A DNA stretch of 64,000 nucleotides, taken from contig NZ_AP014648.1 in assembly GCF_000828475.1 (NCBI RefSeq), positions 682,001 to 746,000 of the forward strand, given 5' to 3'. Below are positions 12,262-64,000 of this stretch, in pieces. Source of the DNA: Methyloceanibacter caenitepidi (GTDB lineage Bacteria; Pseudomonadota; Alphaproteobacteria; Rhizobiales; Methyloligellaceae). Positions within the stretch are counted from its first letter, which is position 1. Every line of letters starts with the position of its first letter. Both the position numbers and the translations under genes were made by a program. Below the pieces are notes generated by a model. The model was not told the DNA's origin, ran no database searches, and saw only the letters and a program-made list of their open reading frames with translations.

Positions 12262-13373
12262 ACCCGCATCGGCATTAGCACGTAGAGGGTCGAGGTATCC
12301 TTCACGTCACGCACCATCGTCGGCGAGCCGGGATCGGCGAACAGGAACTCGGCGGTCTCGCTTTCCAACTGTTGCGCGATGTCGAGCAGGTAGCGGGCGT
12401 TGAAGCCGATCTCGAGCGGATCGGCGTCGTAGCTGACGGGTAACTCCTCCGTGGCGCTGCCGGACTCTGGATTGTTGACCGTGAGCGTCAGCGTGTCGCC
12501 GGCGAGCGCGAGCTTCACCGCACGGCCCTTGTCGTTGGAGAGCGTCGACACCCGGTCCACCGCCTGTTCGAAGGTCACGTTGTCCAGTTCCAGGCGCTTG
12601 TCGTTGCCTTGCGGAATCACGCGCTCATAGTCCGGGAAGGTGCCGTCGATCAGCTTCGAGGTCAGAACGATCTGACCGGCGGACACGCGGATCTTCGAGG
12701 GCGAGAGTTCGATGCGGATGTCTTCGTCGCCTGCTTCCGTCAGATGCAGCAGATCCGCCACGGTCTTGCGTGGCACGATCACACCCGGCATGCCCTTGGC
12801 GCCGGCCGGGAGCGCGATCTCCACCTGCGCCAGCCGGTGGCCGTCCGTGGCGACCGCCCGCAGCGTCTCTTTGCCGTCGGTCTCGGCGGCATGCAGATAG
12901 ATGCCGTTGAGATAGTAGCGGGTCTCCTCGGTCGAAATCGCAAAGCGCGTCTTCTCGATGAGGCGTTTGAGGTTCGCGGCCGGTACGGTGAAGGAATGGT
13001 CGAGGTCTTCGACCGACAAGGTCGGGAAGTCGTCGGCCGGCAGCGTCTGCAGCGAAAACTGCGCCGGGCCGGACGTGATGGTGAGCCGTTCCTGTTCCGC
13101 ATCGCGGTCGATCGCGATGTCCCCGTCCGGGAGCTTGCGCACGATGTCGTTGAACATGTGCGCGGGCACCGTCACGGCGCCGTCGGCGGCGATGGTGCAA
13201 TCGACCGTCTCGACCACTTCCATGTCGAGATCCGTGGCTGTCAGCTTCAAGGCATTTTCGCCGGCGGTCAGCAGCACGTTGGAGAGGATCGGTATCGTGT
13301 TCCGGCGCTCGACCACGCTCGCCATGTGGGCGAGGGCTCGTGCGAGTTTCGGCTTCTCGATCGTAAGGCGCAT
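12258..13373 (-). CDS. dnaN: DNA polymerase III beta sliding clamp
   Basis: Ring-shaped processivity clamp for the replicative polymerase. 371 aa, the standard length, with three clamp domains. It begins with MRLTIEKPKLARAL and ends in VLMPMRV, the conserved C-terminal pattern. The start lacks a clear ribosome-binding site. It is separated from dnaA by 298 bases, enough for its own promoter, and coupled to recF through a 4-base overlap. Confidence 0.97.
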   Translation of the reverse strand: MRLTIEKPKLARALAHMASVVERRNTIPILSNVLLTAGENALKLTATDLDMEVVETVDCTIAADGAVTVPAHMFNDIVRKLPDGDIAIDRDAEQERLTITSGPAQFSLQTLPADDFPTLSVEDLDHSFTVPAANLKRLIEKTRFAISTEETRYYLNGIYLHAAETDGKETLRAVATDGHRLAQVEIALPAGAKGMPGVIVPRKTVADLLHLTEAGDEDIRIELSPSKIRVSAGQIVLTSKLIDGTFPDYERVIPQGNDKRLELDNVTFEQAVDRVSTLSNDKGRAVKLALAGDTLTLTVNNPESGSATEELPVSYDADPLEIGFNARYLLDIAQQLESETAEFLFADPGSPTMVRDVKDTSTLYVLMPMRV

Positions 13374-13671
13374 GGTTGGAGAGTATCCCGAAATCTAGCG
13401 TCTTTTCCGCTGAACGATCCCCGGTCCAAGACTGGCATTCCGGCTGAGCCAGGGCTCCCTTTGGAGCCGCCGCGCTCCCGACGGAGCCTTGGCGAGGCGG
13501 GCGAAAAACCGCGTCAAAAAAGCTCAGTGAACTTGCAGTGATGCGGCGGAATTTGCAAGTGCGGCAAGCGCTCAAAGGGGCTGTGACGGGGACCAACGGC
13601 GTAGTCCGATAGGGCCTCCAATGGCCGACGGGCCCGGAGCGTGCCGCTCCGAGCCCCGCCAACCTCAAGCG
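13374..13671. other. dnaA-dnaN spacer with a dnaA-proximal hairpin
   Basis: 298 bases without a credible gene. A perfect 7-bp stem, CGGAGCG (13635-13641) and CGCTCCG (13645-13651) with a TGC loop, starts 21 bases after the dnaA stop. It has no T run, so it is a weak terminator or processing stem at best. The dnaN-proximal half is less GC-rich and presumably carries the dnaN promoter, but I cannot identify -35/-10 boxes confidently. Confidence 0.5.
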
Positions 13672-15132
13672 CTAGTCGCGCAGGAGCCGCTTCAACAGCT
13701 CGATCTCCTCCCGGAGCTGCGTGTCGTCGCTCATCAGTTGCTCGACCTTGCGTATCGCATGTAGCACCGTCGTGTGGTCGCGGTTGCCGAAACGGCGCCC
13801 GATCTCGGGCAGCGACCGGGAGGTCAGCAGCTTGGCCAGGTACATCCCGATCTGCCGGGGCCGCACGATGGAGCGGTTCCGGCGCCCGGAAAGAAGGTCG
13901 CTGCGGTTGACTCCGTAGTGCTTGGACACGGTCCGTAGGATGTCGTCGATGCGCACCCGGCGAGGCTCGGCGCCGCGCATGAGATCGCGCACGATCTGTT
14001 CCGCAACGGCAATGGTGACCGGCTCGTCGGTGAGCTGGTAGCTCGCCCGCAGGCGGTGAACGGCGCCTTCGAGCTCACGCCCGCTTTCCGTCAGCCGCTC
14101 CGCAAGGAAGGCGAGGACCGTGTCCGACACTTCGAGGCCGTTCGTTTCCGCGCAGGCCTCCAGCGCCCGCTTCTCGAGGATCTTGTGGCGCAGGTCGTAG
14201 TCCATGGTCTTGATCTCGGCCACGAGACCGCCGCCGAGACGGGAGCGCATCCGCATGTCGAGCTTGTCAAGATGGGTAGGCGCCCGGTCCGCAGCCACGA
14301 CCACTTGCCGTCCGCCATCGATCAGCGAGTTCAGCGTGTGGCAGAACTCCTGCTGGATGGTCGGGCCCTGCAGGAACTCCATGTCGTCGATCAGGAGAAT
14401 ATCGATATTGCGGAGCTTTTCCTTGAAGGCGAGGGCGTCGCGCGCGCGCAAGGCCTGCACGAAGCCGGACATGAAGCGCTCGGCGGTGAGATAGAGAACC
14501 TCGGCCTCCGGCTTCTGCCGCTTCACCTCCCAGGCGATGGCATGCAGCAGATGCGTCTTGCCGAGCCCAACATTGCCGTGAAGAAACAGCGGGTTGAACG
14601 GAGACTGCGGGCTCGACGACGAAAGCGCCACTTGATGGGCCGCCGCGTGAGCGAGCTTGTTGGTGTTGCCGACGACAAAGCTGCCGAAGCTCAGGCGCGG
14701 ATCCAGCGGCGATCCTTCGAAGCCGTCATAGCCCGTGCGCAGGGGCATCGGCAGGGCCGAGCGCTCCGCCACGACCTGCGGCGAGACGGCGCGCGGGATG
14801 GCGACGTCCTTCGGCGGCTCGACCGTGAAATGCGGCTGCCGCACGGAGAATTCCAGACGCTCCGCGTTGGGCCATTCTCCCTGAACCTGCCTCAGCACAG
14901 TGTCGTAGTAGTGGGTCCTCAGCCAGTTGCGCAGGAAGCGCGTCGCGACTGTCAGATGGATAACGCCGTCGGCGATATCGTCGACTTCAACGCCGCGAAA
15001 CCAGCTTGCGTAAACGTCCTCTCCCAGTTCGCCGCGCAGCCGGGATTTGACTCGCGTCCAAGCCTCGCCTGGGCCGCATTGCTCCTCTTGATGGGCTCCA
15101 TGGTCGTGAGCCCGTGCCTGTGCCTCTGCCAC
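13672..15132 (-). CDS. dnaA: Chromosomal replication initiator DnaA
   Basis: AAA+ initiator that binds DnaA boxes and melts the origin. 486 aa. Domain I is at about 20-95 and a variable linker runs to about 145. Walker A is GNVGLGKT (186-193), Walker B has D249-D250 in ILLIDDMEF, and the domain IV DnaA-box-binding signature is [12 protein letters not shown] (449-460). The start is GTG 15132 with AGGGAAAG about 9 bases upstream in an AT-rich leader, and no in-frame ATG precedes it closely. It is first of dnaA-dnaN-recF-gyrB and lies 117 bases after the rhodanese gene on the same strand. Confidence 0.97.
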
Positions 15133-57084: not shown

Positions 57085-58014
57085 TCAGCCCGTCAAATCC
57101 TGGGCGAGAAGGTCCTGGGCCAGAAGAGAAAACTCGCCCCGGAGCCACTGATGGCATTCGTCCCGGTCATAACTCGTGTGCCACAACAGGCGCACCGGAA
57201 ACGTTACGGGCTCGACCGGTTGTTTGATCCGCGAGAGGCCGAACTGACGTTCCAGCAAACTTGCCAGCGACGCCGGGAGCGTGAGCAAGGCGTCGCTGTT
57301 GAGCGTCGCCATGACGCCGACCAACGCGGAGGAGACCTGAGACGTTCGCCGGATGTCGAGCCTCGCCTCCGCCAGCCGTTCGGTGAGACCCTGGAAACCG
57401 GGGAGGGAGTGGACGGCTACGTGCTCCGCGGCGGCGAAGGCTTCGCCATTTGGACGCCGCTTGGAGAAGGGGTGTCCGGGGCGAGCCAGGGTTGCGAGCG
57501 CGTCGTCGAACAGCTTAGCGGCCCGCACGTCCGGCGCCTCGGCGCTCTCGCCCATGATGTCGATAACGAAGTGGCAGCGGGCGTTGCGCAGTTCGTCGAT
57601 CGTCGACTCCATGTTCGACGAGGTCCAATCGACCTGGACGCTCGGTGCGCTCGCCTGCAAGCGCTTGCGCAGGGGCTCGACGAGGATCAATTCGCCGGCC
57701 TCGCTGGAGGCTGCGGCAAACGCGCGCATCGTCAGGGACGGGTCGAACGGCTTGTTGGGGCGAAGCAGGCTTTCCATGCCCGCCAGGATCACGTGGACCG
57801 TCGGCGCGAGTTCCTGAGCCCGGGCGGTTGGAACAAGCCGCTGCCCGGCGCGCACGAAAAGCTCATCGTCGAACAATTCCCGCAGCTTAGCCAAAGCATG
57901 GCTGATGGCGGAGGCGCTCCGCCCGAGCCGTTCGGCGGCCCGTGTGACGCTGGCGTCGACCAGGAGCGCATCGAGCGTCACGAGCAGATTGGCGTCGACT
58001 TCCTTAAGATGCAT
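57085..58014 (-). CDS. LysR-family transcriptional regulator
   Basis: 309 aa from ATG 58014. The helix-turn-helix is at about 5-65 (LLVDASVTRAAERLGRSASA, then ISHALAKLRELF), and a periplasmic-binding-like effector domain follows. It resembles the NodD/LinR-like branch (KEVDANLLVTLDALL start). The last residues are a tandem LLAQD-LLAQD encoded by a 15-base repeat (57098-57127). It diverges from the imelysin cluster across 269 bases with a LysR-type dyad 18 bases before its own start, so self-regulation and control of imelysin are plausible. Confidence 0.9.
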   Translation of the reverse strand: MHLKEVDANLLVTLDALLVDASVTRAAERLGRSASAISHALAKLRELFDDELFVRAGQRLVPTARAQELAPTVHVILAGMESLLRPNKPFDPSLTMRAFAAASSEAGELILVEPLRKRLQASAPSVQVDWTSSNMESTIDELRNARCHFVIDIMGESAEAPDVRAAKLFDDALATLARPGHPFSKRRPNGEAFAAAEHVAVHSLPGFQGLTERLAEARLDIRRTSQVSSALVGVMATLNSDALLTLPASLASLLERQFGLSRIKQPVEPVTFPVRLLWHTSYDRDECHQWLRGEFSLLAQDLLAQDLTG

Positions 58015-58031
58015 ATCGCTCAACTATTATT

Positions 58032-58051: not shown

Positions 58052-58283
58052 TCATGATACGGCCCCCCCTAGGGTTATGGCAAGACATTCGGCCGCCCAG
58101 CCCGGGTGTCTGAAGTGTTTCAGCCCGAGCCGAAACGCTTCCTCATCTCAGCCTTGTGGCGGCCCACGGTCCCTGGCCGTTGGGTCGTCACATTCTTCGC
58201 CCCGCTGATAGGGTGAGACGATTGAAATTATAGATTGTGATAGAAAACGACCGGCGAGTCGTAGCAACGTGAGAGGGAGTTCG

Positions 58284-59561
58284 ATGCTTCGAGGACTAAA
58301 GACGATGGTGCCGGCGGCAGCCCTGGCAATTGGCTTTTGCGTGGCGCCCGCGCTGGCCGATGGCCCCAAGGACGTCTTGAAGAACTACGCCGATATCGCG
58401 CAGGCCGGATACGAAGACTCGCTCGAGACTGCCAAGACCATGCAGCTCGCGATCGACGCGTTCTTGGAGAAACCGACCGAACCGAACCTGCGCGCTGCGC
58501 GCGCCGCCTGGATCGCCGCGCGTCCGTCCTACATGCAGACCGAGGCGTACCGCTTCGGAAACCCAATCGTCGACGATTGGGAAGGCAAGGTGAACGCCTG
58601 GCCGCTGGACGAGGGGCTCATCGACTATGTCGCCGAGGTCTACGGCGACGAATCACCCGAGAACGAACTCTACGTGGCCGACGTGATCAAGAACGTCTCC
58701 CTGTCTCTCGGCGGCAAGAAGATCGACACCTCCAAGATCACAAAAGAGCTGCTTGCCGACACGCTGCAGGAAGCGGGCGGCGTCGAGGCGAACGTGGCGA
58801 CGGGGTATCACGCCGTCGAGTTCCTGCTGTGGGGACAGGACCTCAATGGAACCGAAGCTGGTTCGGGCGAGCGTCCGGCGACCGACTACGACCTGAACAA
58901 CTGCTCCAATGGTAATTGCGAACGGCGGGCCGAATATCTGAGCACCGTCACCCAACTCCTGATCGACGATCTCCAGTGGATGGCCGATCAATGGAAAGAG
59001 GGCGGTGATGCGCGCAAGGCCGTCATGGATGCAGGCGATCAAGGCGGTCTGACCGTCATCATGACCGGTCTCGGCAGCCTGTCCTATGGCGAACTCGCCG
59101 GCGAACGCATCAAGCTCGGCCTGATGGTGCACGACCCGGAAGAGGAGCATGACTGCTTCTCCGACAACACCCATGCCGCACACTTCTTCGACGCGCTTGG
59201 CATCCACAATGTCTACACGGGCCGCTATCGCCGCGCTGACGGGTCCGTCGTGTCCGGCCCCAGCGTCTCCGACTTGGTCAAGGCCAAGGATCCGAAAGTG
59301 GACGCCGAGGTTGTCGCAGCGCTCGACGCCACCATGGACGCGATGAACACGCTCTATCTGCGTGCCCTGACCACCGAGAACTACGACCAGATGATCGGCG
59401 AGGGGAACGAAGAGGGGAACAAGGTCGTCCAGGACGTGGTCGACGCCCTGCTGGTTCAGACCAAGGCGATCGAGCGGGCCGTGGCGACACTGGACCTGAA
59501 GTCCATCGAGTTCGAGGGATCGGACAGTCTAGATGCGCCCGATAAGGTCGGGGCTGAATAG
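58284..59561 (+). CDS. Imelysin-family (peptidase M75-like) periplasmic protein 1
   Basis: 425 aa with a signal peptide (about 1-25, APALADG). The imelysin fold is shown by the GxHxxE motif, G174-Y-H176-AVE179 in GYHAVEFLLWGQD, and a second conserved block HDCFSDNTHAAHF. Imelysins (IrpA, ICMP, EfeO-like) are periplasmic or outer-membrane-associated proteins of iron uptake, often iron-repressed. Peptidase activity is doubtful for most. GAGAGGGAG precedes the ATG. It is the first of five co-directional envelope genes. Confidence 0.92.
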   Translation: MLRGLKTMVPAAALAIGFCVAPALADGPKDVLKNYADIAQAGYEDSLETAKTMQLAIDAFLEKPTEPNLRAARAAWIAARPSYMQTEAYRFGNPIVDDWEGKVNAWPLDEGLIDYVAEVYGDESPENELYVADVIKNVSLSLGGKKIDTSKITKELLADTLQEAGGVEANVATGYHAVEFLLWGQDLNGTEAGSGERPATDYDLNNCSNGNCERRAEYLSTVTQLLIDDLQWMADQWKEGGDARKAVMDAGDQGGLTVIMTGLGSLSYGELAGERIKLGLMVHDPEEEHDCFSDNTHAAHFFDALGIHNVYTGRYRRADGSVVSGPSVSDLVKAKDPKVDAEVVAALDATMDAMNTLYLRALTTENYDQMIGEGNEEGNKVVQDVVDALLVQTKAIERAVATLDLKSIEFEGSDSLDAPDKVGAE

Positions 59562-59614
59562 GCAAGGGACGACATAGGCAAAGGGACGATTTGACGACTA
59601 GAAGAAATTTTGTG

Positions 59615-59648
59615 AAATGTTATAATGTATCATTCCACATTCGGAATA
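59615..59648 (+). promoter_or_regulatory. Palindrome over a -10 box before the porin gene
   Basis: A perfect TATAAT (59622-59627) has no matching -35 at the usual spacing, since TTGACG at 59592-59597 is 24 bases away. It lies inside a 23-base imperfect palindrome (59615-59637, GAAATG to CATTCC, 8 of 11 arm pairs). ATTCC-N6-GGAAT (59633-59648) overlaps its right arm. This suggests an internal, repressor-controlled promoter for the porin and downstream genes. Confidence 0.45.
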
Positions 59649-59709
59649 TCGGCAAAAGCCGAACACGATCGACGAAACACGAACCAGAAGCCGTTGGGGG
59701 GCTGATTAA

Positions 59710-61119
59710 ATGGGATTGATTGAGAGAAATCGCGGTCCAGCGACCGAAGACTTGGGTGGTCTTTTCGGCACGTATGTGCGGAAGGCAGCCATCGCGGGGG
59801 CCGCGCTGGTTATGACAATGGTTGCTTCGCCGGGGCTCGCATCGGCCGCTTGCGAAGTGGAACTCGATCCGCGCGATTTCATTGGTGAAGAGAATGGCGA
59901 ACTGAACGCCATTGAGCACCTCGCCGGAGGCACGGTCTCCAGCTTGAACCGGGCGGGCATAGATATCGGCGGCGCCTATGTCGCCGAGCCGTTCTACAAT
60001 TGGGGCGGTATCGACGAAGGCGGCGAGTATCAAGGTGTGCTTGAGCTCTACGTCAACGCGGACATGAAGAAGCTCGGTCTGTGGGATGGTCTTTGCTTCC
60101 ACGCGAACGGCTATCAGATCCATGGCAACTCCATCACGGGCTCCAATATCGGTTCCCTGATGCCTGTCACCAGCTTCGAGGCGAATGACGCGACGCGCCT
60201 GTTCGAGATCTGGTTCGAGCAGTTCCTGTTCAATGACACGGTTTCGGTCAAGGTCGGACAGCTGGCGGCGGATGCCGAGTTCTTCTTCGCCGAAGGCGGG
60301 GGCTACTTCATCAACGGCACATGGGGTTGGGCGCCGATCGCTGCCGAAAACAACCCCGGCGGCGGTCCGGCCTACCCGCTGGCGACGCCCGGCGTCCGTG
60401 TCGCCATCACCCCGACGGAGCAAACCAGCCTGATGGTCGGCGTTTACAACGGTAATCCGGCGCCGGACTGCGCTGCGGACGATCCGCAAGTGTGCAACAA
60501 CGACGGTCTGGATTTCGGTCTGCGGGATCGGACGCTCTTGATGGCGGAAGGCGCCTACAGCTATTCGCTGGCGGGCGGTGAACTGCCGGGCCAGATCAAG
60601 GTCGGTGGCTGGAACCACTTCGGGGACTTCAACCACATCTATACCGATGCGGGCGGCAACCCCATTGCGATCTCCGGTAATGACGGCAAGCCGCTCGACA
60701 ACGATTACGCGCTCTATGTGATCTTGGACCAGTTGCTGTGGCGTGTGCCGGGCAGCGAGGACCCGCAAGGGGTCGGCTTCTTCACCCGCTTCGCCGGAGC
60801 GCCGGACGATCGCAACTATGTCGACTTCTACTTCGACGTGGGTCTCACCTTCACCGGCATGATCCCGGGCCGTCCCGACGACGCCTTGGCCATCGGCTAT
60901 GCCTATACGAGCATTTCCGACCAGGCGCAGGCGTTCAACGTAACCAATGGCGATCCGGCCGGCGAGGGCTACGAGGCTCTGATCGAGATCGCGTACACCA
61001 TGGAGGTCATCGACGGTTGGACGTTGCAGCCGGACTTCCAGTACATCTTCAATCCGGATGGCGGCGTAGAGGCCGAAAATGCAACGGTCGTTGGCGCACG
61101 CAGCACGTTCGCATTCTAG
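59710..61119 (+). CDS. OprB-like outer-membrane porin
   Basis: 469 aa. A long N-terminal region leads into a signal peptide (cleavage near ASA-AC at 47). The rest is beta-strand-like with alternating aromatic residues, ending in FAF with a terminal Phe, as in outer-membrane barrels. It resembles carbohydrate-selective porin OprB (for example FEIWFEQFLFNDTVSVKVGQ, VGVYNGNP and QPDFQYIFNPDGG). A G-rich ribosome-binding site precedes the ATG. Set between imelysin and the di-heme oxidoreductase, it may import a metal-ligand complex or other small solute rather than sugar. That is inference. Confidence 0.85.
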   Translation: MGLIERNRGPATEDLGGLFGTYVRKAAIAGAALVMTMVASPGLASAACEVELDPRDFIGEENGELNAIEHLAGGTVSSLNRAGIDIGGAYVAEPFYNWGGIDEGGEYQGVLELYVNADMKKLGLWDGLCFHANGYQIHGNSITGSNIGSLMPVTSFEANDATRLFEIWFEQFLFNDTVSVKVGQLAADAEFFFAEGGGYFINGTWGWAPIAAENNPGGGPAYPLATPGVRVAITPTEQTSLMVGVYNGNPAPDCAADDPQVCNNDGLDFGLRDRTLLMAEGAYSYSLAGGELPGQIKVGGWNHFGDFNHIYTDAGGNPIAISGNDGKPLDNDYALYVILDQLLWRVPGSEDPQGVGFFTRFAGAPDDRNYVDFYFDVGLTFTGMIPGRPDDALAIGYAYTSISDQAQAFNVTNGDPAGEGYEALIEIAYTMEVIDGWTLQPDFQYIFNPDGGVEAENATVVGARSTFAF

Positions 61120-61131
61120 AAAGGTGGGCGC

Positions 61132-62703
61132 GTGAACACAGCACGGTTCACGCCGTCTCAGAGTCAGTCGACCCCGACAGCACCGTCAAGTCACGCGAAA
61201 GCGTGGCTTGGCGGTGTCCTTCTTGTTGGGGGCTGCGTGCCTCTGCTGGCGGGCCTTGTATTGTATGCGGGCTCGGCCGGCGGGACGGGAGCGTCCGACG
61301 TTCCGGTGCCGCCTATCGACTTCACGAAGGCCGAGCCGGGGGAAGACCGGCCGGGCGGCGGCGCCACATCCCGCGCCGCGACCGACACTGCCAATGCGTT
61401 TTCCCAATCTTCCGGCAACATGGGTTTCCGCAAGGAACTCGACTTCAAGATCGGGAACAGCATTTTCCGACGGCACTGGGTTTCTGCGCCCGCCTCCACC
61501 GATGCCTCGGACGGTCTCGGGCCGCTCTTCAACGTGCGTGGCTGCCAGGACTGCCATATCAAGGACGGACGCGGCCATCCTCCCGTCGCCTCGAACACGC
61601 CGGGGCCGACGGGTTCGCTCCTGTTCCGCCTCTCGGTGCCCGCCAAGACCGATGACGAGAAGGCGCTCCTTGCCTCCGGCAAGGTGACCGTGCTTCCCGA
61701 TCCGGTCTACGGCGGACAATTGCAGGACATGTCGATCCAGGGCCACCAGGCGGAGGGCGCCGTCAAAGTGACGTACGAGGAGGAGGAGGTCTCTCTCGCC
61801 GGTGGCGAGAAGGTCTCCTTGCGCGTGCCCCGCTACGAACTGTCCGGACTCAACTACGGCCCCATCAGTCCAGACGTGATGCTGGGTCCGCGCATCGCGC
61901 CGCCTATGATCGGACTCGGCCTGCTCGAGGCTGTTCCGGAAGAGCAGATCATGGCAAATGCCGACCCGGAGGATGCGGACGGGGACGGCATTTCAGGGCG
62001 TCCGAACCGTATCTGGTCAGAGCTGCACGACAAGGAGATGCTGGGCCGTTTCGGTTGGAAGGCGAATGTGCCGACCATCATCGAACAGAATGCCGGTGCG
62101 TTCTCCGGCGATATCGGCATCTCGACAACGCTCCATCCGAGCGGCGCGGGCGAATGCACGGAGCGGCAGACGTCGTGCACCGACGCGCCGTCCGGCAACT
62201 CGCCCAGATACCAAAACGTGGAAGTGGGCGACGAGCTGTTCGATCTGATGACGTTCTACACGCAGAACCTTGCGGTTCCGCCACGCCGCAATGTGGACGT
62301 CCCCGACGTGCTGAAGGGCAAAGAGCTTTTCTACCAGGTCGGCTGCGCACAATGTCACCAGCCCAAGTTCACGACCGGCGACGTGCCCGAGCAGCCCCAT
62401 CTGTCGAACCAGCTCATCTGGCCCTACACGGACATGCTGCTCCACGACATGGGCACGGGGCTCGCGGACAATCGGCCCGACGGCAAAGCGACGGGGAGCG
62501 AATGGCGTACGCCGCCGCTCTGGGGTATCGGTCTGACCGAAACAGTGAGCGGCCACACCCAGTTCCTTCATGACGGCCGGGCGCGCAATCTCACGGAGGC
62601 CATCCTGTGGCACGGCGGCGAAGGGCAAGCGGCTCGCGACCGCTTTGCCGCGCTGGAAAAGGAAGACCGGGAGCGCCTCTTGGCGTTTTTGAACTCGCTC
62701 TGA
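61132..62703 (+). CDS. Di-heme oxidoreductase (DHOR/DUF1111, MauG-like)
   Basis: 523 aa c-type cytochrome of the di-heme oxidoreductase family, often annotated thiol oxidoreductase. One membrane anchor is at about 26-47. Heme sites are C138-QD-C141-H142 and C405-AQ-C408-H409. The Ca-like motif EDADGDGISGRPN is at 280-292. GTG start with AAAGGTGG upstream, 12 bases after the porin stop. This family is a frequent neighbour of imelysins in iron-regulated loci. Its substrate is unknown. It presumably takes electrons from, or gives them to, a periplasmic partner. Confidence 0.92.
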   Translation: MNTARFTPSQSQSTPTAPSSHAKAWLGGVLLVGGCVPLLAGLVLYAGSAGGTGASDVPVPPIDFTKAEPGEDRPGGGATSRAATDTANAFSQSSGNMGFRKELDFKIGNSIFRRHWVSAPASTDASDGLGPLFNVRGCQDCHIKDGRGHPPVASNTPGPTGSLLFRLSVPAKTDDEKALLASGKVTVLPDPVYGGQLQDMSIQGHQAEGAVKVTYEEEEVSLAGGEKVSLRVPRYELSGLNYGPISPDVMLGPRIAPPMIGLGLLEAVPEEQIMANADPEDADGDGISGRPNRIWSELHDKEMLGRFGWKANVPTIIEQNAGAFSGDIGISTTLHPSGAGECTERQTSCTDAPSGNSPRYQNVEVGDELFDLMTFYTQNLAVPPRRNVDVPDVLKGKELFYQVGCAQCHQPKFTTGDVPEQPHLSNQLIWPYTDMLLHDMGTGLADNRPDGKATGSEWRTPPLWGIGLTETVSGHTQFLHDGRARNLTEAILWHGGEGQAARDRFAALEKEDRERLLAFLNSL

Positions 62704-62756
62704 TTGCGACGACCAGGCTACGCCACGCGCAACGCCGGAAATCAGATGTTAGACAC

Positions 62757-63875
62757 ATGCCAATGACCCGTCTGCCAACGATCCGTTTCCTCCATTCGGT
62801 CCTGTCTTTGGGGGTTCTGCTTCTTGCTTTCTGTTCGGCCGGGACCGTAGCGCGGGCGGAGGCCGATCACGGCGCCGTTGCCGAGGCTGCGCTGACGAAA
62901 GTCATAAGGCCGGGCTACGACGCATTCGCAGCCGATGCCGCGACCTTGGCAGCCAAGACCGCGGTGCTCTGCACGGACCCCTCGCACAAGAGCCTCGCGG
63001 ACGCCCGCGCGGCCTTTGTCCAAGCGGTGAAGGGCTGGAGCGCAGTCGAGAACTTTCAGTTCGGGCCGGTCAACCACGAGCATCGCTACGAGCGGCTTTT
63101 CTTTTGGCCGGATCGGAAGGGCCTTGGCTACCGGCAGGTGCAGCGGGCTCTTTCGGACAAGGACGAGAGTGTGACGAGCGTCGAGACGCTCGCCAAGAAG
63201 AGTGTCGCGCTCCAGGGCTTGCCCGCGCTCGAAATCCTTCTTTACGGTAAGGGCTCCGACGCACTTGCGAGCCGAGGGGACGATGCGGTGTTCCGCTGCC
63301 GCTTCGCCGCTGCGGCAGCCGGCAATATCGCGCAACTTTCCAAAGACCTCGTCCAGGCGTGGGCGCCTGGTGCACCCTTCACCAAGAGTTTTCTGGAACC
63401 CGAGCCCGACGGCGCGCTTTACCGTGCCCCGAAAGACGTGACGCTGGAACTCTTCAAGGCCTTCAGCGGCGGTATCGAACGCGTGCGTGATCAAAAGCTC
63501 GGCCGGGTGTTGGGCGAGTCCGCCAAACGCTCCCGGCCGCGTCTGGCGGCGTTCTGGCGAAGCGGCCAGACCTTTCCGAACATGGCCGGCAATCTTCGCT
63601 CCGTAAGGGCCCTGTTTGTCGACGGAGGCTTTGCCGGGATCGTTGCCGACCAGTCGCCGGGTGTCGAGGACTCGATTTTGTTCGACCTCAACCACAGTAT
63701 CGACGTGCTTGCCGCCGAAACCGAGCCGGTCGCCGAGGCGGTGACCGATCCCGAACAGCGGGGCAAGCTCGAGGCTTTGCGTGTCGGGTTGAAGAGCGCC
63801 AACACCACCGCATCCGGATTGATCGCCGAGGGCGCGGGCCTCAGCTTCGGGTTCAACGCGGGCGACGGAGACTAG
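62757..63875 (+). CDS. Imelysin-family periplasmic protein 2
   Basis: 372 aa with a signal peptide (about 1-34, VARAEAD). It belongs to the second imelysin branch: the GxHxxE position reads G154-LPALE159 (QGLPALEILLYG), so the His is replaced by Pro while the Glu stays. RYERLFFWPDRKGLGYRQVQ is another branch signature. It follows the di-heme enzyme by 53 bases. A pair of unlike imelysins around a di-heme oxidoreductase recurs in proteobacterial iron-regulated loci. Confidence 0.88.
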   Translation: MPMTRLPTIRFLHSVLSLGVLLLAFCSAGTVARAEADHGAVAEAALTKVIRPGYDAFAADAATLAAKTAVLCTDPSHKSLADARAAFVQAVKGWSAVENFQFGPVNHEHRYERLFFWPDRKGLGYRQVQRALSDKDESVTSVETLAKKSVALQGLPALEILLYGKGSDALASRGDDAVFRCRFAAAAAGNIAQLSKDLVQAWAPGAPFTKSFLEPEPDGALYRAPKDVTLELFKAFSGGIERVRDQKLGRVLGESAKRSRPRLAAFWRSGQTFPNMAGNLRSVRALFVDGGFAGIVADQSPGVEDSILFDLNHSIDVLAAETEPVAEAVTDPEQRGKLEALRVGLKSANTTASGLIAEGAGLSFGFNAGDGD

Positions 63876-63877
63876 CC

Positions 63878-64000
63878 ATGACACTCAACCGCCGCACATT
63901 CCTCACCGCGCTCGCCGGATCCTCGCTGGCGCTGACCATGCCCGCTCGTCTCGCCGCTGCGTTTTTGCCGGAGCGTTTCGCCGCTGCGCGCATGGACGAT
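63878..64000 (+). CDS. Tat-exported protein, probably DUF1513 (partial, cut by window end)
   Basis: Only the first 41 codons are present. A twin-arginine signal, NRRTFLTALAGSSLALT, is followed by an Ala-rich c-region, so the protein is exported folded through Tat. It starts 2 bases after the imelysin-2 stop (TAG-CC-ATG). In comparable loci the gene at this position encodes a DUF1513 beta-propeller-like protein. That identity is inferred from context, since the domain itself lies outside the window. Confidence 0.65.
   Translation, partial: MTLNRRTFLTALAGSSLALTMPARLAAAFLPERFAAARMDD

Follow-up and report, generated by a model that had tools for sequence, protein, structure and literature searches.

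A predicted Zur-controlled porin unit within an imelysin/di-heme oxidoreductase cluster of Methyloceanibacter caenitepidi

Which metal is served by a cluster that combines two imelysins, a di-heme oxidoreductase (DHOR) and a DUF1513 protein with an outer-membrane porin? The question is raised by a locus at the end of the stretch of Methyloceanibacter caenitepidi DNA that we analysed (contig NZ_AP014648.1, positions 682,001 to 746,000 of the forward strand; 64,000 nucleotides (nt), hereafter the window). An original prediction, made from the sequence of the window, took these five genes to be one packed cluster for metal acquisition, with the emphasis on iron. A palindrome of Zur type is present in the gap 5' of the porin gene, and we propose, with a probability of roughly 60%, that the porin, DHOR, imelysin 2 and DUF1513 genes form a Zur-repressed unit for the scavenging of zinc (or cobalt), transcribed apart from imelysin 1.

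The cluster and the box before its porin

As had been claimed, five genes lie on the same strand with gaps of 148, 12, 53 and 2 nt at the coordinates given below, and each belongs to the expected Pfam family. The DUF1513 gene is cut by the end of the window at position 64000, and its final 975 bases were taken from the genome (3.42 Mb). In the comparisons that follow, in which G and L numbers denote genomes and loci, this cluster is locus L003.

57085..58023, minus strand: LysR-family regulator (PF00126 and PF03466), divergent from the cluster
58079..58201, plus strand: gene resembling a small RNA (sRNA), with two hairpins, a single-stranded linker and a terminator-like third hairpin
58284..59561, plus strand: imelysin 1, ICMP/PA4370 type, ATG start (PF09375, 278 bits; GxHxxE)
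59614..59636, no strand: Zur-type box of 23 base pairs, in the 148-nt gap 5' of the porin
59710..61119, plus strand: OprB-family outer-membrane porin (PF04966, 273.6 bits)
61132..62703, plus strand: DHOR, GTG start (PF06537, 331 bits)
62757..63875, plus strand: imelysin 2, IPPA/PA4372 type (PF09375, 161 bits; GxxxxE)
63878..64975, plus strand: DUF1513 Tat-like (twin-arginine translocation) protein (PF07433, 368 bits on the full gene)

Gene order and spacing agree with a single packed cluster, but the 148-nt gap has a regulatory site of its own, so that there are probably two transcription units. The site was found with the pattern ATGTTATANTATAACAT, which we take to represent the Zur consensus, allowing up to three mismatches and using the reversed pattern as a control. 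The genome has two such places and none for the control; the second overlaps the 5' end of a reading frame assigned to the Fur family (PF01475 above cut-off), referred to below as the zur-like gene. By a matrix trained on 14 sites from outside this gap in two genera, the box in the window scores 20.8 bits and the next non-overlapping site in the 64 kb scores 6.0. The box also fits, with one mismatch, the Zur motif GTTA-5N-TAAC given for Caulobacter in excerpts of PMC4176598.

Across 17 genomes of the genus, the pattern matched at 38 places and the control at five (summed counts). Of the 16 places whose neighbours were inspected, nine adjoin zinc-type genes: zur (own genome and G161), TonB receptors (G031, G153, G160, G109 and G074), and COG0523 GTPases accompanied by zinc ATP-binding cassette (ABC) genes (G151 and G160). 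The TonB receptor of G031 is nearest to ZnuD in a family test, at 264 bits against a cut-off of 950, and the COG0523 protein of G151 lies above the ZigA cut-off (602.6 versus 600); the remaining zinc-type neighbours were assigned by visual inspection.

The slot between imelysin 1 and DHOR

We compared the interval between imelysin 1 and DHOR, which we call the slot, across the order. The 81 loci taken comprise 73 of the 86 listed DHOR matches (the 13 weaker ones were omitted) and eight from a search of the genus; in 72 of them imelysin 1 lies on the same strand 5' of DHOR, and the nine dropped were mostly cut by contig ends or lacked imelysin 1. In 41 of the 72 clusters the slot is short (less than 600 nt) and contains none of the tested genes. 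OprB occupies it in ten, all from the window's own genus, so that the idea of OprB as a fixed member of the cluster is not supported. A second porin-like type is found in five clusters, a third barrel-like type in one, and ApbE with a barrel-like gene on the opposite strand in one; a barrel or barrel-like gene thus stands in 17 of 72 slots, which supports the broader claim that the cluster belongs to the envelope, is linked to metal and includes a barrel of the outer membrane. A further nine slots hold bfd, alone or together with bfr; in the one such pair that was checked against Pfam, the ferritin scored 111 bits and BFD 24.3 bits, slightly under its cut-off of 26. In five (L159-L161, L163 and L164), the slot contains a multicopper oxidase, and DHOR is divergent; one of these oxidases was checked against Pfam. 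Sulfitobacter pontiacus (Rhodobacterales) likewise has in the slot a hypothetical protein that by eye resembles the third barrel type, with no good site.

Zur-type sites recur at barrel-bearing slots. Within the first 300 nt 3' of imelysin 1, GTTA-N5-TAAC with at most one mismatch was found at 10 of 16 barrel loci and at one of 56 others (P = 1.5e-7 by Fisher's exact test, with L081 counted as lacking a barrel), and six control patterns were found at 1 to 3 of the 16 and 0 to 7 of the 56. On the matrix, whose training sites were found by the same pattern so that the test is partly circular, nine of the 17 barrel clusters score 19.4-25.7 bits, and the best of the 55 without a barrel scores 8.9. 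A further site of the genus was found in G152 (C37:106-122), at the end of a contig and at the place expected for the slot; its position is inferred, and it is outside the 17.

The second genus with such sites, g34, comprises eight AT-rich genomes, and its slot sites occur in G181, G141, G075, G033 and G110; in G181 (one mismatch) and G141 (two), the slot site is the best among those listed. Genome-wide box counts in g34 were discarded as evidence, the control being equally high, and position and neighbours were considered instead. In G110, a 17-mer identical to the slot site also lies 158 nt 5' of znuA (PF01297), and another site precedes a Fur-family gene. The ten g34 places inspected include those at znuA, the Fur-family gene, two COG0523 genes (G075 and G203), zrgA (PF10986, in G181) and the G181 slot.

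The g34 porin-like gene is not detectably related to OprB (hhalign probability 0.3%, from shallow alignments). Pfam and NCBIfam searches with it found no match and a PDB search no convincing one, one plasmid relative that was inspected is annotated as hypothetical, and a rough count of strands discriminates poorly between barrels and controls. We regard it as barrel-like on the grounds of its signal peptide, size and C-terminal Phe, judged by eye.

Several sister species carry a different signal. A cobalamin riboswitch (RF00174) lies between imelysin 1 and OprB in G074, G153, G151 and G031 (113.7-124.4 bits) and between LysR and OprB in G159 (118.2 bits), where there is no imelysin 1; in G109 it was seen as a regular-expression match alone. 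G151 carries both the riboswitch and a Zur-type site of 20.4 bits, and an Rfam search found no cobalamin riboswitch in the window. Because the OprB proteins of G074, G153, G151 and G031 align from residue 48 onward only, the alignment suggests that riboswitch and signal peptide arrived together. Second OprB-family genes with an upstream riboswitch, in metal-efflux-looking surroundings, occur in the window's own genome (an OprB fragment, PF04966) and in M. marginalis.

Some observations stand beside these results. No DHOR was found in G159 (L243/L248), a genome that is 81% complete. In the window's own genome, at 1,305,868-1,310,541 (L237 3869-8542), a cobalamin riboswitch precedes the OprB fragment and a TonB receptor; this locus adjoins genes that look like Czc-type efflux, and the same genes are found again in G153. 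In L123 (11,196-14,501, G029), genes resembling znuA, an ABC ATPase and COG0523 accompany a Zur-type site of 25.5 bits, about 1-4 kb downstream of an imelysin cluster of the bfd/bfr type. In L112 (about 12,960-13,760 in DHOR orientation, G116), a Zur-type site of 27.4 bits lies beside an open frame whose sequence resembles a cobalamin riboswitch in translation.

Proteins of the cluster and a proposed route

Imelysin 1 is nearest in the PDB to 7xrx (ICMP; E = 1.5e-146), and G174, H176 and E179 of its GxHxxE motif are unchanged in nine sequences. Imelysin 2 matches 3pf0 (IPPA; E = 2e-26); its GxxxxE motif reads GLPALE at residues 154-159, with G154 and E159 unchanged in eight sequences. DHOR has two CxxCH motifs (residues 138-142 and 405-409), unchanged in nine sequences, and is probably membrane-anchored, to judge by a hydrophobic stretch seen by eye at its N-terminus; a sequence search of the PDB gave no useful match for it. 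For OprB, Porin B (4gey/4gf4) was matched at E of about 2e-30, and the structure model is a barrel of moderate confidence (predicted local distance difference test score (pLDDT) 67.6, predicted template modelling score 0.69), in keeping with the outer-membrane porin that had been predicted. The N-terminus of the DUF1513 protein is MTLNRRTFL, which we take to be a Tat-like motif. The model of its orthologue from M. methanicus is beta-propeller-like at low confidence (pLDDT 61). A comparison of its sequence with the PDB turned up nothing convincing (the top match, to YopM at E = 4.5e-8, had no single stretch passing), and among the best 50 of 1441 structure matches were TolB, hydrazine synthase, WD40 and other proteins, none of them named AztD, a zinc chaperone that DUF1513 might resemble.

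In the scheme that we propose, repression, the identity of the metal, its transport, co-transcription and all steps beyond the porin are what we infer. LysR, the sRNA-like gene and imelysin 1 would make up a first unit. The second, from the porin to DUF1513, would have its promoter in the 148-nt gap, be repressed there by Zur and be switched on at zinc shortage; in several sister species, with the porin slot under a cobalamin riboswitch, it would be expressed under B12 limitation. The OprB-type porin may pass a divalent metal (zinc, possibly cobalt), or a small complex of it, through the outer membrane, periplasmic imelysins would capture the metal, its processing or onward transfer would fall to DHOR and the DUF1513 propeller, and a Zur-linked AztA-like ABC transporter would take it across the inner membrane. 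Zinc is named on the strength of Zur. A shared function of the genes 3' of the porin is suggested by their spacing of 12, 53 and 2 nt and by loci L072 and L075, in which imelysin 2 and DUF1513 are missing and DHOR stays with the porin. Capture of zinc by an imelysin would be chemically plausible by analogy with the M75 protein EfeM, for which excerpts of PMC9174327 report binding of Zn2+ (dissociation constant 3.4 uM) and Cu2+ (4.1 uM).

Several known systems resemble parts of this cluster. The PA4370-PA4373 (ICMP) operon of Pseudomonas aeruginosa has an ICMP-type imelysin, a DUF1111/DHOR-type protein and a second imelysin in the same order; it differs in being Fur-regulated, and the word 'porin' does not occur in the available main text of PMC3143127. 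The ferrous iron transporter EfeUOB/M likewise joins an M75 domain to a heme peroxidase-type partner, and EfeM binds Cu, Zn and Fe according to the same excerpts of PMC9174327; here, however, the imelysins are nearest to ICMP and IPPA rather than EfeO, and no EfeU (Ftr1-type) family was found among the five genes and LysR, to which the search for EfeU was confined. Channels under Zur, namely the oprD porin and TonB receptors such as ZnuD (the regulon figure of a review, PMC6103462, names oprD and TonB receptors), share with this locus an outer-membrane protein under Zur control, in our case predicted, and TonB receptors in this genus bear the same box; the difference is that the protein here is of the OprB family and lies within an imelysin/DHOR cluster. 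The likeness to OprB carbohydrate porins consists in PF04966 and the match to Porin B, whereas the genomic and regulatory setting of this porin appears to be metal-related.

The upstream part of the locus is conserved as well. LysR is kept at the same place in the genus loci whose contigs extend that far, and also in Methyloligella sp. GL2. The sRNA-like gene lies about 55-65 nt from the divergent LysR and is conserved with three hairpins; of its 36 predicted pairs, ten show changes to both partners in one or more of nine sequences. With a covariance model, matches at E <= 0.1 were obtained in 16 of the 17 genomes of the genus (13 of these above 100 bits) and, across the order, matches at E <= 0.01 in nine of 297 genomes; two Rfam searches covering the window copy gave no match to it. 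A second copy lies at 2,748,496 in the same genome (L204 4997-5118), and copies of this second type are also found in G153, G074, G151, G160 and G159, ending in a hairpin and, in those inspected, a T run. A second copy with such an ending makes an independent sRNA gene more likely than a cis element, the initial view of the block 5' of imelysin 1. A link of the LysR/sRNA-like pair to VtlR/AbcR was also rejected, as the Agrobacterium arrangement is unlike the one here: there, a gene for thioredoxin reductase adjoins vtlR, and abcR1 and abcR2 follow downstream (excerpts of PMC7486931).

Weighing zinc against iron and cobalt

A number of results weigh against a Zur-repressed zinc unit. The best NCBIfam match of the zur-like gene is Zur at 61.6 bits, under the cut-off of 167, and the adjoining ATPase is nearest to AztA at 214.9 bits, slightly under 220. 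No zinc gene was recognised alongside seven of the 16 genus places (L166, L169-L172, L178 and L180) or at four of the ten g34 places (L291 and L294-L296), g34 matches with up to three mismatches are genome-wide about as common as those of the control, and a consensus scan of the 148-nt gap gave no promoter-like match. Three of the control patterns also differed nominally between barrel and other loci (P = 0.009, 0.047 and 0.047 by Fisher's exact test), and to this is added the partial circularity of the matrix. No good site is present in eight of the 17 clusters with a barrel (L070, L071, L072, L074, L076, L081, L082 and L085); the two closest relatives among them carry the riboswitch only, and L072 and L076 carry neither. 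In L083 and L084, stronger sites (21.0 and 24.5 bits; slot site 19.4) lie some 1 kb beyond the 3' end of the cluster, flanked by a ribA-looking gene and a small gene. Finally, the slot sites are kin by descent inside each genus and amount to about two events, not nine.

The original prediction holds in part, but its emphasis on iron is not supported. The metal signal found in the window is a Zur-type box (boxes for Fur, Irr and RirA were outside the search), and the core is linked to iron elsewhere: PA4370-PA4373 is Fur-regulated in the available text of PMC3143127, bfd/bfr are neighbours of the core in nine of 72 slots, and a Tateyamaria cluster is adjoined by hemP, heme-ABC and TonB genes. 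These observations, together with Methyloligella sp. GL2, which keeps the porin at a locus without imelysin or DHOR genes, would suit an iron core as in Pseudomonas in which a Zur-controlled zinc porin happens to sit, the downstream genes being expressed by read-through. We consider this the less likely arrangement, though one to be taken seriously: the 12-nt gap between porin and DHOR makes separate control hard, two genera have a Zur-type site in the same slot before DHOR with porins that are not detectably related, and DHOR stays with the porin in L072 and L075. The original proposal of a general operon for iron uptake, under which the box would be AT-rich promoter DNA that matches by chance, is very improbable. 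The box does contain TATAAT, a possible -10 element, the core is iron-linked in other bacteria (PMC3143127, in the same text), and an iron signal could lie among the boxes outside the search; against this, the box occurs at only two places in the genome, the other being at the zur-like gene, and its score stands far above that of the next site in the 64 kb (20.8 versus 6.0 bits).

The riboswitches raise the matter of cobalt. If the porin served B12 or cobalt supply, the Zur-type site would reflect cross-talk between zinc and cobalt, and riboswitches before the cluster porin in five species, and before the second OprB-family genes of the window's own genome and M. marginalis, would find their place. 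Acquisition of cobalt or corrinoids nevertheless seems improbable as the general explanation, since the window has no riboswitch, four genus slots (L003, L078, L079 and L080) have good Zur-type sites without one, and g34, which was not part of the Rfam scan, has Zur-type sites in its slots. The Zur-repressed zinc (or cobalt) unit remains the reading that we prefer.

A wider and less probable extension is that the core is a general module for redox-assisted metal scavenging, not devoted to iron by nature, in which the content of the slot sets the metal: zinc with Zur-controlled barrels, which would have been recruited independently at least twice, cobalt with the cobalamin riboswitch, and iron with bfd/bfr or a multicopper oxidase. 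Among the papers listed in searches on imelysins, Zur, porins and cobalamin riboswitches, no title or abstract opening mentions a Zur-controlled imelysin or DHOR cluster, and the available text of PMC3143127 calls the way in which imelysins act in metal uptake unsettled. Zur-type slot sites before porin-like genes that are not detectably related, together with the B12 riboswitch of the sister species, offer a direct test of the module's metal. If the proposal is true, an OprB-family porin would join the outer-membrane channels under zinc control.

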